A DNA stretch of 36,430 nt, taken from IMG/VR virus record IMGVR_UViG_3300046028_004510, positions 1 to 36,430 of that record; one strand, 5' to 3'. Source of the DNA: a virus. The notes under the pieces are model-generated. The model saw only the letters and a program-made list of their open reading frames with translations. It was not told the origin of the DNA and ran no database searches. Within the stretch, counting starts at the first letter, position 1. Every line of letters starts with the position of its first letter. The translations under genes were made by a program, and so were the position numbers. This document shows, in pieces, positions 23,824-36,430 of the stretch.

Positions 23824-24834
23824 CTAAATATCAATATCCCCTGGATTGGTATTGCAGTATCTCTGCAAAGTTTTCCAGCTCGAATGTAAAGTGATTTGTT
23901 GCACATCAACTATCGATAATCCTTTTTCAAATAGACGACTGGTAGCTTCATGGCGCAGATCGTGAAAATGCAGATTATCTATCTGTAGCAAGCGACAGGC
24001 ATTAGTAAAGTAAGTGCAAATAGTCTTAGTAGTATAAGGAAAGACACGCTCATCAATCCTCGGTTGCTTCATGATGATTTTATAAGCACTCAAGGGCATC
24101 TTTGCTCTTTTGTTAATAACGCGCTTCAATGGGTCTTTTAATCCGTAGACAACATAGGTTCTATCTTCATGTCGAATATCTTCCCATTTAATACGCATAA
24201 TCTCAGACTGTCTACGGGCTGAATAGATCGCAAACCACATCAGGTGAAGCATTGGTATATTCATGCCATCAAAGTGCCTAGATAGCTCCCACAACTCCTC
24301 CTTGGTAGGCCTTCTATCCCTTGCCACAGATGATGCAATAAGACCATGTTCGCTTAGTATTCTTCTGGCTTCATCAAAAATACCCATGTTAAATTCTAGC
24401 TTGTGCATACCAGACATGGTTTGAATGACACCGGATAACCATATCAAATCATTCTTAGCTGTCTGAGGCTTACAAACTTCATTTCTTAGTTGTATGTGCT
24501 TAACTACATCTTTGACTGTTAGTTTATGGACATCAATCTTGCAAATATCTCTAGTCCTTAATCCTTTTAAGTCTGATTTCTTAGTACGACCTTCTGGGCT
24601 GAACAGGTTTATGTATTCATCTATTAAAGTACCAATCGAAAGATAATCTTTCTTGGCATAGACATCAGTATTTTGTAGTTCGACTTCTCTACGAATACTC
24701 CAATCTTTTGCCAATTTAGTTTTATCAAAAGTTTTTGACTCCCTGTGTATAATTACGCCATCTTTTTTAATAACGATCTCAGCTTTATAAACAATGCTTC
24801 CATCTGCCCTAGTTCTTTTTGTAATAGTTGCCAT
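23824..24834 (-). CDS. int: Tyrosine recombinase integrase
   Basis: 336 residues from the ATG at 24834 (a longer frame upstream runs into the repeat region). The N-terminal part (ATITKRTRADGSIVYKAEIV) is an arm-binding-like domain, then a core-binding helical domain, then the catalytic domain with SARRQSEI (R207/R208), HDLRHEATSR (H291, R294), LHSS (H317) and the nucleophile Y326 in TLQRYCN. All expected active-site residues except an easily assigned Lys are visible. It integrates the phage at a host site; attP was not identified. Clusters of GGCGTA repeats lie just before the gene. Confidence 0.93.
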   Translation of the reverse strand: MATITKRTRADGSIVYKAEIVIKKDGVIIHRESKTFDKTKLAKDWSIRREVELQNTDVYAKKDYLSIGTLIDEYINLFSPEGRTKKSDLKGLRTRDICKIDVHKLTVKDVVKHIQLRNEVCKPQTAKNDLIWLSGVIQTMSGMHKLEFNMGIFDEARRILSEHGLIASSVARDRRPTKEELWELSRHFDGMNIPMLHLMWFAIYSARRQSEIMRIKWEDIRHEDRTYVVYGLKDPLKRVINKRAKMPLSAYKIIMKQPRIDERVFPYTTKTICTYFTNACRLLQIDNLHFHDLRHEATSRLFEKGLSIVDVQQITLHSSWKTLQRYCNTNPGDIDI

Positions 24835-24840
24835 TTTGAG

Positions 24841-25027
24841 TACGCCTAATAATGTCAGGCGTACTATAGGCGTAACGATAGTGAAATACAATTACTTTTT
24901 ATTACTTATAAACACATGGAAAACCTAGATTTTACGCGGCATCGCTTCTGTGTTGCCCCAATGCTAGATTGGACAAATACGCCATATATAATGCGTCATG
25001 TGGCGTTTCAGGTGTACTAGGGGCGTA
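24841..25027. repeat. GGCGTA repeat cluster before integrase
   Basis: TACGCC at 24841-24846 and 24978-24983; GGCGTA at 24858-24863, 24869-24874 and 25022-25027; a variant GGCGTT at 25002-25007. Both orientations occur. The first pair forms an inverted repeat just before the integrase start. They could be recombinase arm sites, binding sites of the PrtN-like protein, or an operator for int. The gap 24835-25053 holds no gene that I can see. Confidence 0.6.
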
Positions 25028-30185: not shown

Positions 30186-30190
30186 AAAAT

Positions 30191-30219
30191 AATATACCAA
30201 TTGGTAAACATACTGTCAA
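30191..30219 (-). promoter_or_regulatory. PL promoter
   Basis: On the minus strand TTGACA (plus 30214-30219), 17-bp spacer, TATATT (plus 30191-30196). Near-consensus. The spacer ends in the operator TACCAATTGGTA, whose last TA begins the -10. The same geometry is found at PR. It drives the leftward early operon to integrase. Confidence 0.82.
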
Positions 30220-30231
30220 TATCATTTGGTA
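30195..30231. promoter_or_regulatory. Left operators OL1 and OL2
   Basis: OL1: TACCAATTGGTA (30195-30206), a perfect palindrome. OL2: TATCATTTGGTA (30220-30231), one mismatch in the left half. Their centres are 25 bp apart, the same as the right operators. They flank and overlap the PL -35. Confidence 0.8.
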
Positions 30232-30302
30232 TATTTTTCAAACAAAATAACACATAAAACCATAAGTATCTGATTAATTGAGGTATTTATTTTTGATAGG
30301 CA

Positions 30303-30327
30303 ATAAAAAACCCCAGTTAAGGGGTTT
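30303..30327 (-). terminator. Terminator of the toxin-antitoxin-chaperone operon
   Basis: In minus-strand RNA AAACCCC (from 30327), loop UUAACU, GGGGUUU and then UUUAUUG. A 7-bp stem and U-run, 30 bp after the chaperone stop. The plus strand has a weaker U-run. It isolates the operon from PL. The spacer 30232-30302 holds nothing else I can see. Confidence 0.75.
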
Positions 30328-30356
30328 GATAGGGGATTGGGTGGTTATTTTTAAAA

Positions 30357-30776
30357 TCAGGAATCTAGTTTCATTGTCAATGGTATGAAATCTAATTGTA
30401 CAAATGTCCAAGGACCGCGTGACGTCATATCCGCTAATCGCTCTCGAATAGCTCCTAAAAGTAATTGTGTTCCTGATGTTTCAACAAGACTTTCTATGCT
30501 TTGATAATTTTGCACATCTGGTTTTATTGAAATAATACCAAATGCAGTTATAGAAAAAAAATAGGGTGAGTTTTCGCTTTTTTCTTTATCTAGCTCAACA
30601 TGAACTGTTAAACCGTATCTATACCCATTATTGCTATCATCTAAACGAATTATTCCACCATTAACAATAATATCAATAGACGGTTTTTTATCTGCATTTT
30701 GCAAGAATTCAGGATTAGCTATAGCCTCTTGATGGGTAAAAAAATAGCTCTCAAGCCGTAGTGGAAATTCGCTCAT
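30357..30776 (-). CDS. SecB-like chaperone of a TAC module
   Basis: 139 residues. The sequence follows the SecB-superfamily plan: IDIIVNGGIIRLDDSNNGYR (34-53), YGLTVHVELDKEKSENSPYF (54-73), FSITAFGIISIKPD, then QLLLGAIRERLADMTSRGPW (104-123) and FVQLDFIPLTM. The helix-plus-'RGPW-x-L-P' end is the most typical part. In TAC modules a SecB-like protein protects the antitoxin, and in CmdTAC of E. coli it is diverted by a phage capsid protein so that the toxin is released. Here it is the third gene after toxin and antitoxin, overlapping the antitoxin by 26 bp, with an AGGA site six bases before its ATG. Confidence 0.78.
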   Translation of the reverse strand: MSEFPLRLESYFFTHQEAIANPEFLQNADKKPSIDIIVNGGIIRLDDSNNGYRYGLTVHVELDKEKSENSPYFFSITAFGIISIKPDVQNYQSIESLVETSGTQLLLGAIRERLADMTSRGPWTFVQLDFIPLTMKLDS

Positions 30777-31140
30777 CAGTTTTCCTTTTTTGCTTTACCC
30801 ATTCACTGGTAGTATCTTTATTAGGTAATTGCTGGGATTTTAAAACATCAAACCATTGCTCATTAGATTGCTTTGGTGAAATATGTATTTGCAGTTCTCC
30901 GTCTACCGATCGTGCTAATTTAACCATTGTTTCTATAGTAAAATTAGCATCACCTCTAAATACTTTAGTTATATAGGCTGGGCTAGTATTTAGCTTTTCA
31001 GCTAGTGAAGTCTGAGTGATGCCGCTTTTTTTGAAGAAATTAGTTAATTCAATGGAAAAATTAAGCTTAGCCTTTTCAACCCAGTATCTATCTCTTTGCT
31101 TAGCTTCAGTTAGTAATTTTTTAAAAGATTTTAATGCCAT
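30751..31140 (-). CDS. HigA-like antitoxin of the TAC module
   Basis: 129 residues from the ATG at 31140 (GAGGAA ribosome site; longer frame upstream overlaps the toxin). N-terminal helix (ALKSFKKLLTEAKQRDRYWV), XRE-type HTH at about 30-78 (FFKKSGITQTSLAEKLNTSP, YITKVFRGDANFTIETMVKL) and a C-terminal tail (88-129) with W96 and W114 and many basic residues. The tail, absent from the 93-residue junction antitoxin, is in the place of the chaperone-addiction domain of known TAC antitoxins. Begins 4 bp after the toxin stop. Confidence 0.8.
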   Translation of the reverse strand: MALKSFKKLLTEAKQRDRYWVEKAKLNFSIELTNFFKKSGITQTSLAEKLNTSPAYITKVFRGDANFTIETMVKLARSVDGELQIHISPKQSNEQWFDVLKSQQLPNKDTTSEWVKQKRKTDERISTTA

Positions 31141-31144
31141 ATTA

Positions 31145-31564
31145 TTATTCCTCATCCTTAACATAAATAATTTGATTCTTATCATGCGCCAACTGATAGG
31201 CTTTTTTGTGTCTAATAGCTTTATTTTTATCTTTATCAGTTGTCTTTTGTGTCTTTTTTATAAATGCGTGAGTTGTTACAATTATTGTATCGCCATGCCC
31301 TTTAAAAAATAATAGACGTATATCGCCTTTAATTAATTCAGAAATTTTATTATTTTTATCGACCTGATGACATTGCTTAGCTGATAAAACATCTATCCCA
31401 CGCTCTACAATTTGCTCAATCAATCTAAATAATCCAGCAGCACTTGCTTGATAATTATCAGCAAGGTCATTAAAAAACTCGTCAATCTCGCAAGAATCAC
31501 CATCCATTATAGCGACAACCTTACAGTGCGATGATGGCGATTCATGTAAAACTTTAAGTTTCAT
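31145..31564 (-). CDS. HigB/Gp49-like toxin of the TAC module
   Basis: 139 residues. The C-terminal half is a clear HigB/RelE-superfamily toxin: GDIRLLFFKGHGDTIIVTTH (80-99), then AFIKKTQKTTDKDKNKAIRH (100-119) and KKAYQ. FIKKTQKT is the family's common strand-turn-helix. The N-terminal half (about 1-60) is longer than in minimal HigB. The family cleaves mRNA at the ribosome. The gene is first in the operon, ten bases after its predicted transcription start. Confidence 0.82.
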   Translation of the reverse strand: MKLKVLHESPSSHCKVVAIMDGDSCEIDEFFNDLADNYQASAAGLFRLIEQIVERGIDVLSAKQCHQVDKNNKISELIKGDIRLLFFKGHGDTIIVTTHAFIKKTQKTTDKDKNKAIRHKKAYQLAHDKNQIIYVKDEE

Positions 31565-31572
31565 TTTAACCT

Positions 31573-31633
31573 ATAAGTTAATTTTAGAGTAATGAAGTAA
31601 ATTTATCAATGTCACTTTCACTGTATAACTTAT
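31573..31633 (-). promoter_or_regulatory. Promoter and inverted sites of the TAC operon
   Basis: Minus-strand TTGATA (plus 31604-31609), 17 bp, TAAAAT (plus 31581-31586). ATAAGTTA at 31573-31580 and its inverted copy TAACTTAT at 31626-31633 flank the promoter, 53 bp centre to centre, about five helical turns. These are candidate antitoxin operators. The start would lie near 31574, leaving a ten-base leader to the toxin ATG at 31564. Confidence 0.65.
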
Positions 31634-31667
31634 CTATCTTTTTTATTCAGCGGATCAGTAATTACAT

Positions 31668-32177
31668 TCAGGTAAGTGTGTTGCCATTTTCCTCCTTTAT
31701 GACCGCGTCTTTTTTTTGTGCATCTTCAATATCCCTTTTTACTGCATCACAAAATGGCTGATCTGCTGCTTGATTCTGTCGTCTTTTATAAGCAGATAAG
31801 GGATCATGCAGGTTCACCCCCCCCACATTTTCCGGTTGAGCTGTCAAGGGTTTATTTGCAGGTTTTTGAGATAATTTAAAGTCAATAAATTCAGTTACTT
31901 CACGTTGCTGATCTGGGCAGAGTTGGTTGAATTTATCGAGTATGTTAGATGATGGTAACTGTGCAATTGAATCTAATGTATCCATCCATCCAGATGGCTT
32001 ACCTAGCAATATTTCAAACTTTCTAGCTGTTTTTTCGCCAATATTTCTTTGACCAGTCAATAAATGATTAACACGGGCTGTGCTGGTATCAAGAATTTCG
32101 GCGAGCGCTACCTGCGAACCATATTTTGCCTCAAGTTTTTTTAAGTTTATTTTCCTAATTTCAGTCACTTCTTTCAT
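31668..32177 (-). CDS. Phage repressor (CI-like, no peptidase domain)
   Basis: 169 residues from the ATG at 32177, with GGGAG two bases upstream (tight spacing); a longer frame would include operator O3. An XRE-type HTH spans about 12-60 (SQVALAEILDTSTARVNHLL, NIGEKTARKFEILL). The C-terminal region has no S24 Ser/Lys motif, so RecA-stimulated self-cleavage is not expected. The gene contains an 8-base G run (plus 31817-31824, C8). Divergent from cro with the operators in between, it is the obvious lysogeny repressor. The TAC operon follows on the same strand. Confidence 0.8.
   Translation of the reverse strand: MKEVTEIRKINLKKLEAKYGSQVALAEILDTSTARVNHLLTGQRNIGEKTARKFEILLGKPSGWMDTLDSIAQLPSSNILDKFNQLCPDQQREVTEFIDFKLSQKPANKPLTAQPENVGGVNLHDPLSAYKRRQNQAADQPFCDAVKRDIEDAQKKDAVIKEENGNTLT
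31817..31824. repeat. C8/G8 homopolymer in the repressor gene
   Basis: Eight C on the plus strand, eight G in the sense strand, coding the region of ENVGGVNLHD. Such tracts slip readily in replication and sequencing; a one-base change would alter the last 50 or so residues. Confidence 0.9.
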
Positions 32178-32188
32178 TTCTCCCACAT

Positions 32189-32250
32189 TACCAAACAAAT
32201 AATTAAATACAACTACCAAAAGGTATTGATTAATAATCTACCATTTGGTA
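32189..32250. promoter_or_regulatory. Right operators OR1, OR2 and a weak OR3
   Basis: OR1 TACCATTTGGTA (32239-32250), OR2 TACCAAAAGGTA (32214-32225), and a half-site TACCAAACAAAT (32189-32200). Centres are exactly 25 bp apart in both steps. OR1 lies in the PR spacer and touches the -10; OR3 lies between the repressor start and OR2, where it could control the repressor promoter. Confidence 0.78.
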
Positions 32251-32254
32251 TATT
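32226..32254 (+). promoter_or_regulatory. PR promoter
   Basis: TTGATT (32226-32231), 17 bp, TATATT (32249-32254). The operator OR1 fills the spacer and shares TA with the -10, identical in layout to PL. The predicted start is near 32261, one or two bases before the cro ATG at 32263. Confidence 0.8.
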
Positions 32255-32262
32255 TAACCCAT

Positions 32263-32463
32263 ATGATCAGTCAAATTAAAACAAATGAATTAGCCAATTT
32301 TCTTGGAAAAACCAAGGGATGGGCTTCGAGTCTCAAAAAGGGGAGAAGAAAACTTCCTCTTGCTGAGTGTTTTCGAGTTTCTGAGCATTTTGGTATCCCA
32401 TTACATGATCTTCGTGAAGAGTTCCCACGAGAAGAAATCCGTCCCGACATTTTTGGTAAATAA
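32263..32463 (+). CDS. Cro-like repressor (YdaS-type HTH)
   Basis: 66 residues from the ATG at 32263. QIKTNELANFLGKTKGWASS, KKGRRKLPLAECFRVSEHFG and IPLHDLREEF match the small Cro/YdaS helix-turn-helix proteins (first helix, turn, 'GRR-x-P' then 'C-x-x-E' helix). It would bind the same TACC-N4-GGTA operators and shut the repressor. The ATG is at or next to the predicted transcription start, so the mRNA would be leaderless or nearly so. An in-frame ATG 18 bp upstream lies in the promoter and is rejected. Confidence 0.8.
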   Translation: MISQIKTNELANFLGKTKGWASSLKKGRRKLPLAECFRVSEHFGIPLHDLREEFPREEIRPDIFGK

Positions 32464-32465
32464 CT

Positions 32466-32657
32466 ATGGCACTCGACTACGAAATAAAAACTTCAGTTGA
32501 TGAGGACACCCATGACAACGCTCTAGTTACTGCCAGATCGTACGGCTTTAAGACTCGCGCGGAGTGGGTACGCTGGTTAATAGAGAGAGAGTTGGCATGG
32601 GCAGTTCCACAACTACATATTAACCGCATACCTGGTGCAGTGAAAGGACGAGAGTGA
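32466..32657 (+). CDS. Ribbon-helix-helix-like regulator, 63 residues
   Basis: A beta strand (DYEIKTSVDEDTHDNALVTA) followed by two helices (RSYGFKTRAEWVRWLIEREL) fits an Arc/CopG-type fold, and the C-terminal tail is basic (HINRIPGAVKGRE). The gene begins two bases after cro, where lambda has cII; a role as a lysis-lysogeny regulator is possible. No strong ribosome site, so coupling with cro is likely. Confidence 0.65.
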   Translation: MALDYEIKTSVDEDTHDNALVTARSYGFKTRAEWVRWLIERELAWAVPQLHINRIPGAVKGRE

Positions 32658-32710
32658 AGCTCGATTCGTCTGCAAAATAAATTGAACTTTTTGAAAAGTA
32701 GTCTAGCGAA

Positions 32711-36273: not shown

Positions 36274-36430
36274 GCAGCAATATGCAAATTAATATTCAAA
36301 GCCTTGATGATGCGATGGACGGTATCCCATTTAGGTTGCGTTTTACCGGACAAGGCTTTGTAAAGGCTCTCACGGTTAAGCCCTGTATCAGTAGCAAGCT
36401 GAGTAATACCTTTGGCTTTGGCGACATGAC
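36270..36430 (-). CDS. HigA-like antitoxin, C-terminal part (split by window ends)
   Basis: The TAA (plus 36270-36272) ends the frame that continues from base 250 leftward. Reading from 36430 it gives the last 50-odd residues, including SGKTQPKWDTVHRIIKALN and ending HIAA. Confirms that the window ends join. Confidence 0.85.
   Translation of the reverse strand, partial: HVAKAKGITQLATDTGLNRESLYKALSGKTQPKWDTVHRIIKALNINLHIAA
36305..36430. repeat. Terminal redundancy, right copy
   Basis: Identical to 4-129; see the left copy. Confidence 0.9.

Follow-up and report, generated by a model that had tools for sequence, protein, structure and literature searches.

Toxin-antitoxin-chaperone (TAC) systems are already known, as is the rex slot, the hotspot behind the repressor gene where lambda carries rexAB. 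Among the TACs characterised in E. coli, CmdTAC is triggered by the T4 capsid protein (PMC11618068), MqsRAC acts against T2 (PMC9519451) and HigBAC is reported to be triggered by the lambda major tail protein (PMC11980606, citing Mets et al. 2024). The C-terminal tail of the Mycobacterium tuberculosis antitoxin HigA1 needs W108 and Y114 (PMC6377645, PMC5105189), and W108, R110 and Y114 in this tail hold the chaperone (PMC6377645). Defences located behind cI include RexAB, BstA and RexABpp (PMC8585504, PMC12894663).

The trio described here has the same order of toxin, tailed helix-turn-helix (HTH) antitoxin and SecB-like chaperone as HigBAC of E. coli C496 and HigB1-HigA1-SecB(TA) (Rv1955-57) of M. 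tuberculosis. The toxin is likewise in the HigB/Gp49 sphere, the antitoxin tail likewise includes a tryptophan motif and the chaperone fold is like that of Rv1957. However, the sequences are far apart, with no PDB profile match, and no report of either system in a rex slot was found in the literature searched. Sensing of a phage protein is shown for E. coli HigBAC (PMC11980606) and is putative for the present trio. CmdTAC (PD-T4-9) of E. coli is likewise a TAC with a SecB-like chaperone and provides the model for phage-triggered release (PMC11618068), but its toxin is an mRNA ADP-ribosyltransferase and not of the Gp49 type, and CmdA is described as two helices with an unstructured tail while the antitoxin here is a tailed HTH protein. 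Lambda rexAB, bstA of BTP1 and the RexABpp genes of P. putida prophage P1 share the slot behind cI and the cI strand and are prophage-encoded exclusion systems (PMC8585504, PMC12894663), though their proteins are unrelated to the trio and include no toxin-antitoxin or chaperone part. Profile searches revealed no RexA or RexB homology in the three proteins, which match the Gp49, HTH and SecB families. No paper joining TACs to the rex slot was found in a literature search that reached the minority of subscription journals, and a TAC family habitually housed in this slot is, as far as searched, undescribed.

Organisation of the immunity region and its three-gene cargo

The window, i.e. the whole stretch analysed, is the 36,430 nt (36.4 kb) of IMGVR_UViG_3300046028_004510. 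The final 126 bases (36305-36430) duplicate bases 4-129 and, hence, the record represents a closed, essentially complete genome. It encodes an integrase (23824-24891) together with podovirus-type terminase, portal, capsid and DNA-ejection proteins, and found no DNA match among named phages or E. coli genomes. PADLOC matches to NsnC and PDC-M64 were set aside, being to single domains with no system named. A second Gp49-type toxin is encoded at 260-553 on the minus strand (1.1e-7). A lambda-like switch, made up of a minus-strand repressor gene, a divergent Cro-like gene and two operators in the gap between them, lies at 30.2-32.5 kb, where the following features were located.

30191-30219, minus strand: PL, a strong leftward promoter, TTGACA-17-TATATT, matching 11/12 consensus positions, between and over the OL operators
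30195-30231: OL, two operators, 30195-30206 (TACCAATTGGTA) and 30220-30231 (TATCATTTGGTA)
30308-30327, minus strand: intrinsic terminator ending the TAC operon, also kept in siblings with an empty slot
30357-30776, minus strand: SecB-like chaperone, 139 aa, the start overlapping the antitoxin end by 26 nt
30751-31140, minus strand: antitoxin, 129 aa, HTH_3 (6e-10) with a C-terminal tail
31145-31564, minus strand: toxin, 139 aa, Gp49/HigB-type (RelE superfamily), PF05973 (2.8e-9, above the curated cut-off)
31566-31581: imperfect palindrome of 16 bp (TTAACCTATAAGTTAA) preceding the toxin ATG
31581-31609, minus strand: predicted TAC promoter, TTGATA-17-TAAAAT
31668-32177, minus strand: repressor, HTH, 169 aa, phrog_12107 'transcriptional repressor' (1.1e-13)
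32214-32250: OR, two operators, 32214-32225 and 32239-32250
32263-32463, plus strand: Cro-like protein encoded divergently to the repressor, HTH, weak HTH_3 match (0.029)

Exact copies of TACCN4GGTA occur three times in the 36 kb, solely in OL (30195) and OR (32214 and 32239), against 0.19 expected, and none of 100 shuffled sequences reached three; a copy with one mismatch at 30220 is the fourth site. As OL and OR carry the same operator, the trio occupies the place of lambda rexAB, the position given to it in a preliminary description of this DNA. It sits in the interval that separates cI from OL, on the same strand as cI, and the terminator (read 30327-30308) falls between the trio and PL, in agreement with the earlier view that the operon is isolated from PL. 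No terminator was found between the repressor and toxin genes. The DNA past the repressor stop (31668 and downstream), which siblings also conserve, reads on in another frame (QHTYLNVITDPLNKKDR), a hint that the end of the repressor may be frameshifted.

All three TAC genes are present directly after the repressor gene, and Pfam and NCBIfam matches and the AlphaFold fold agree with their initial description as a HigB-like toxin, a HigA-like antitoxin with a C-terminal extension and a SecB-like protein. A profile built from seven toxin relatives matched the PDB HigB toxin 6af3 weakly (E 0.0093), and the antitoxin profile had no PDB match. The antitoxin start was taken as 31140 by alignment, not the ORF start at 31185. 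Its HTH domain is followed by a tail of approximately 45 residues with a conserved tryptophan in NEQWFDVL and a second tryptophan in SEWVKQKRK. In the alignment, antitoxin tails are about 40-55 aa long with a conserved tryptophan, which is invariant in the first seven relatives and present in most, though not all, of the wider set. The tailed antitoxins accompany a chaperone, whereas a distant antitoxin from Dyadobacter (L114) has neither a tail nor a chaperone gene nearby. Many tails end in small residues (-AA, -IYA or -AIAS), and such C-termini may resemble ClpXP degrons.

The chaperone scored 25.9 bits against Pfam SecB (1.1e-5; cut-off 26) and 5.6e-7 against NCBIfam SecB and, because the profile match was weak, the protein was modelled with AlphaFold. 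The pLDDT was 72.5 with 7 alignment rows and 86.5 with 20 rows. For use in scanning, a 20-row chaperone alignment proved too diverse. All 23 Foldseek matches at E<=0.001 were to SecB or SecB-like proteins, including the M. tuberculosis TAC chaperone. In VIA-align comparisons the model scored Z 13.2-13.3 against E. coli SecB and Z 11.4 against Rv1957, and the first unrelated chain appeared at 5.9. Judged by its predicted fold, the third protein is a SecB-like chaperone, as originally proposed. It is distant from characterised chaperones; its profile made no sequence match in the PDB, and single-protein scans retrieved only the sibling L002 described below.

A promoter belonging to the operon, also part of the preliminary description, is predicted at 31609-31581. 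However, the flanking inverted sites named there were rejected, as stated, as a TAC operator, since one arm (~31623-31634) is in repressor flank that siblings with no TAC also possess. A better candidate is the palindrome at 31566-31581, which is letter-for-letter identical in the diverged relative L104 though its flanks differ, and it is likely to be an autoregulatory antitoxin operator. The window aligns with L104 from 31593 onwards but not further upstream; hence, the TAC -10 box and leader are conserved.

A heteroimmune sibling and recurrence beside repressors

One sibling, L002 (IMGVR_UViG_3300014837_000313), matches the window at 99 % identity throughout this region except in two places. 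In the first (window ~31940-32690), the N-terminal ~80 residues of the repressor, OR, cro and the next gene are replaced, such that the DNA-binding half of the repressor is swapped and the C-terminal part retained. In the second, 1.7 kb away, ~45 bp at OL (window 30188-30236) are replaced. OL and OR of L002 have a common palindrome of a different type, TAAC..GTTA. The repressor and both operator sets have thus been replaced in concert, and this is strong evidence, from sequence alone, that OL is correctly assigned. The TACs of the two genomes differ by one amino acid.

Further siblings were retrieved via the helicase and ERF genes, and the content of the slot varies among them. The interval from the repressor end to the terminator is empty in L018/L020/L024, L029, L030 and L034. 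In L021 (3646-4635), and also in L031 and L032, it holds a Panacea-domain antitoxin (PF13274, 2.4e-20) and a 152-aa partner, unmatched in Pfam, which is a candidate new toxin. L033 (6205-6742) carries a 61-aa ORF together with a membrane protein of 127 aa that weakly matches DUF2335, and L028 (314-1571) four small genes, among them a weakly PHD-like one and another encoding a retropepsin-like aspartyl protease.

Antitoxin scans of viral contigs and bacterial genomes revealed 24 distinct TAC loci, the window and L002 included, and the only other match was the distant L114. The trio, read at the outset as a module from gene order and motifs, is kept together in the order toxin, antitoxin, chaperone in all 22 loci with enough readable downstream DNA. 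A cI-type repressor gene lies upstream on the same strand within 1.8 kb in 17 of the 24 loci, though, with viral contigs making up part of the material scanned, this is not a rate for all TACs, and in 15 of the 17 it is within ~820 nt of the toxin gene. This linkage in many unrelated phages strengthens the assignment to the rex position.

Matching operators on both sides of the repressor and TAC were found in four of these 17 loci, namely L012, L110 (a short contig labelled Bowmanella) and the Pseudomonas prophages L111 (P. mendocina) and L112 (P. fluorescens). Operator words from upstream of the repressor reappear 470-760 bp past the chaperone gene as pairs flanking TTGAC, and none of 200 shuffles yielded as many near-identical shared sites. 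The TACs of L012, L110 and L111 are closely related while their operators differ. The same shuffle test gave no significant shared OL/OR words for L008, L011, L014, L117, L121, L122 or L104. Its dyad filter also missed the operators of the window and L002, the evidence for which is the count of exact copies and the sibling comparison given above; L009, with no downstream sequence, lay outside the test. In three loci a secreted-looking protein adjoins the TAC or sits between it and the repressor (L011 4769-5365, L117 3790-4386 and L122 3845-4315).

Searches of 50,697 named phage records with the window chaperone and toxin and the antitoxins of two relatives gave no protein match. L104, from a Methylococcaceae bin, shares 81, 69 and 61 % identity with the trio in gene order, and its origin may point to a methanotroph host. 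The corresponding dN/dS values are 0.13, 0.16 and 0.09 (dS saturated for the chaperone gene), and by this measure purifying selection acts on each gene of the trio. A Gp49-like toxin-antitoxin pair is convergent to the TAC in L104 (5843-6450).

Proposed function and alternatives

We consider it fairly probable that this HigBA-SecB-type TAC is rex-slot cargo expressed in the lysogen and serving as a phage-triggered abortive defence. As the device recurs next to the switch of many unrelated viruses, it is probably a prophage defence against rivals. Its anatomy, protein families, fold, position between OL and OR, recurrence and purifying selection were observed, while chaperone dependence, phage sensing, defence and expression in the lysogen are inferred, the mechanism by analogy with studied TACs. 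In the lysogen, transcription of the operon would start at a promoter of its own that is autoregulated, and read-through from PRM would probably contribute. The chaperone would hold the antitoxin tail and so keep the antitoxin stable, and the antitoxin would inhibit the toxin, a putative ribosome-dependent mRNase, and repress the operon. A structural protein of an infecting phage could then outcompete the tail for the chaperone, leading to degradation of the antitoxin, and the freed toxin would cut mRNA and halt translation, aborting the infection and sparing the host population of the prophage.

A phage that encodes a sensor for phage structural proteins must not set it off with its own, and how it manages this is a concrete question raised by this arrangement. 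A podovirus-like carrier may not have a tail-tube trigger, though this is only a guess. It is also conceivable, if doubtful, that this family consists of specialised rex-slot systems with sensors tuned to competing phage groups, the carrier escaping via the extra antitoxin and chaperone supplied by its incoming copy; TAC defence in E. coli is lost when additional chaperone is present (PMC9519451). If so, exclusion would outlast changes in repressor immunity and spare heteroimmune siblings with the same cassette. The heteroimmune pair formed by the window and L002 offers a ready test of whether phage defence and immunity specificity evolve separately. If TACs repeatedly occupy the rex slot, prophages would form a natural reservoir for this type of defence. 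The finding links two hitherto separate lines, defence by toxin-antitoxin systems under the guard of a chaperone and the exclusion genes located behind the repressor of temperate phages.

The main rival to defence is addiction, in which a genuine TAC serves mainly to retain the prophage, cured cells being poisoned as antitoxin and chaperone decay, and the position is simply a permissive spot expressed in lysogeny. Addiction is a classic role of toxin-antitoxin modules, an antitoxin of the tail-dependent kind decays rapidly once the chaperone is missing (PMC5105189), and both the Panacea antitoxin among the slot cargo and the second Gp49-type toxin in the window would fit. However, stabilisation requires no chaperone, an integrated prophage is stable already, the characterised E. 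coli TACs act against phage (PMC9519451, PMC11618068), the known slot tenants RexAB and BstA are exclusion systems, and experiments on a HicAB of a P. putida prophage showed neither a defence nor an addiction role (PMC12894663). We therefore regard retention as the principal purpose of the trio as possible but unlikely.

That the trio tunes the lysis-lysogeny switch, with DNA binding by the antitoxin or toxin activity altering expression of the repressor or from PL and PR, is quite improbable. The antitoxin is a DNA-binding protein encoded beside the repressor, and RexA is reported to bias the lambda switch (PMC11077077). Nonetheless, the same TAC is found unchanged with two repressor/operator specificities and siblings do without it, which indicates that the switch is independent of the TAC, and the conserved palindrome sits at the promoter of the TAC itself.

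Finally, the cI-n interval is known as a mosaic hotspot (PMC8585504, citing Degnan 2007) and the slot content of siblings varies, but that the three ORFs are a neutral passenger, acquired there by recombination with no selected function for the phage, is very improbable, as it is disfavoured by the selection result (dN/dS 0.09-0.16), the trio being intact in every readable locus and the linkage to repressor genes in 17 of 24.
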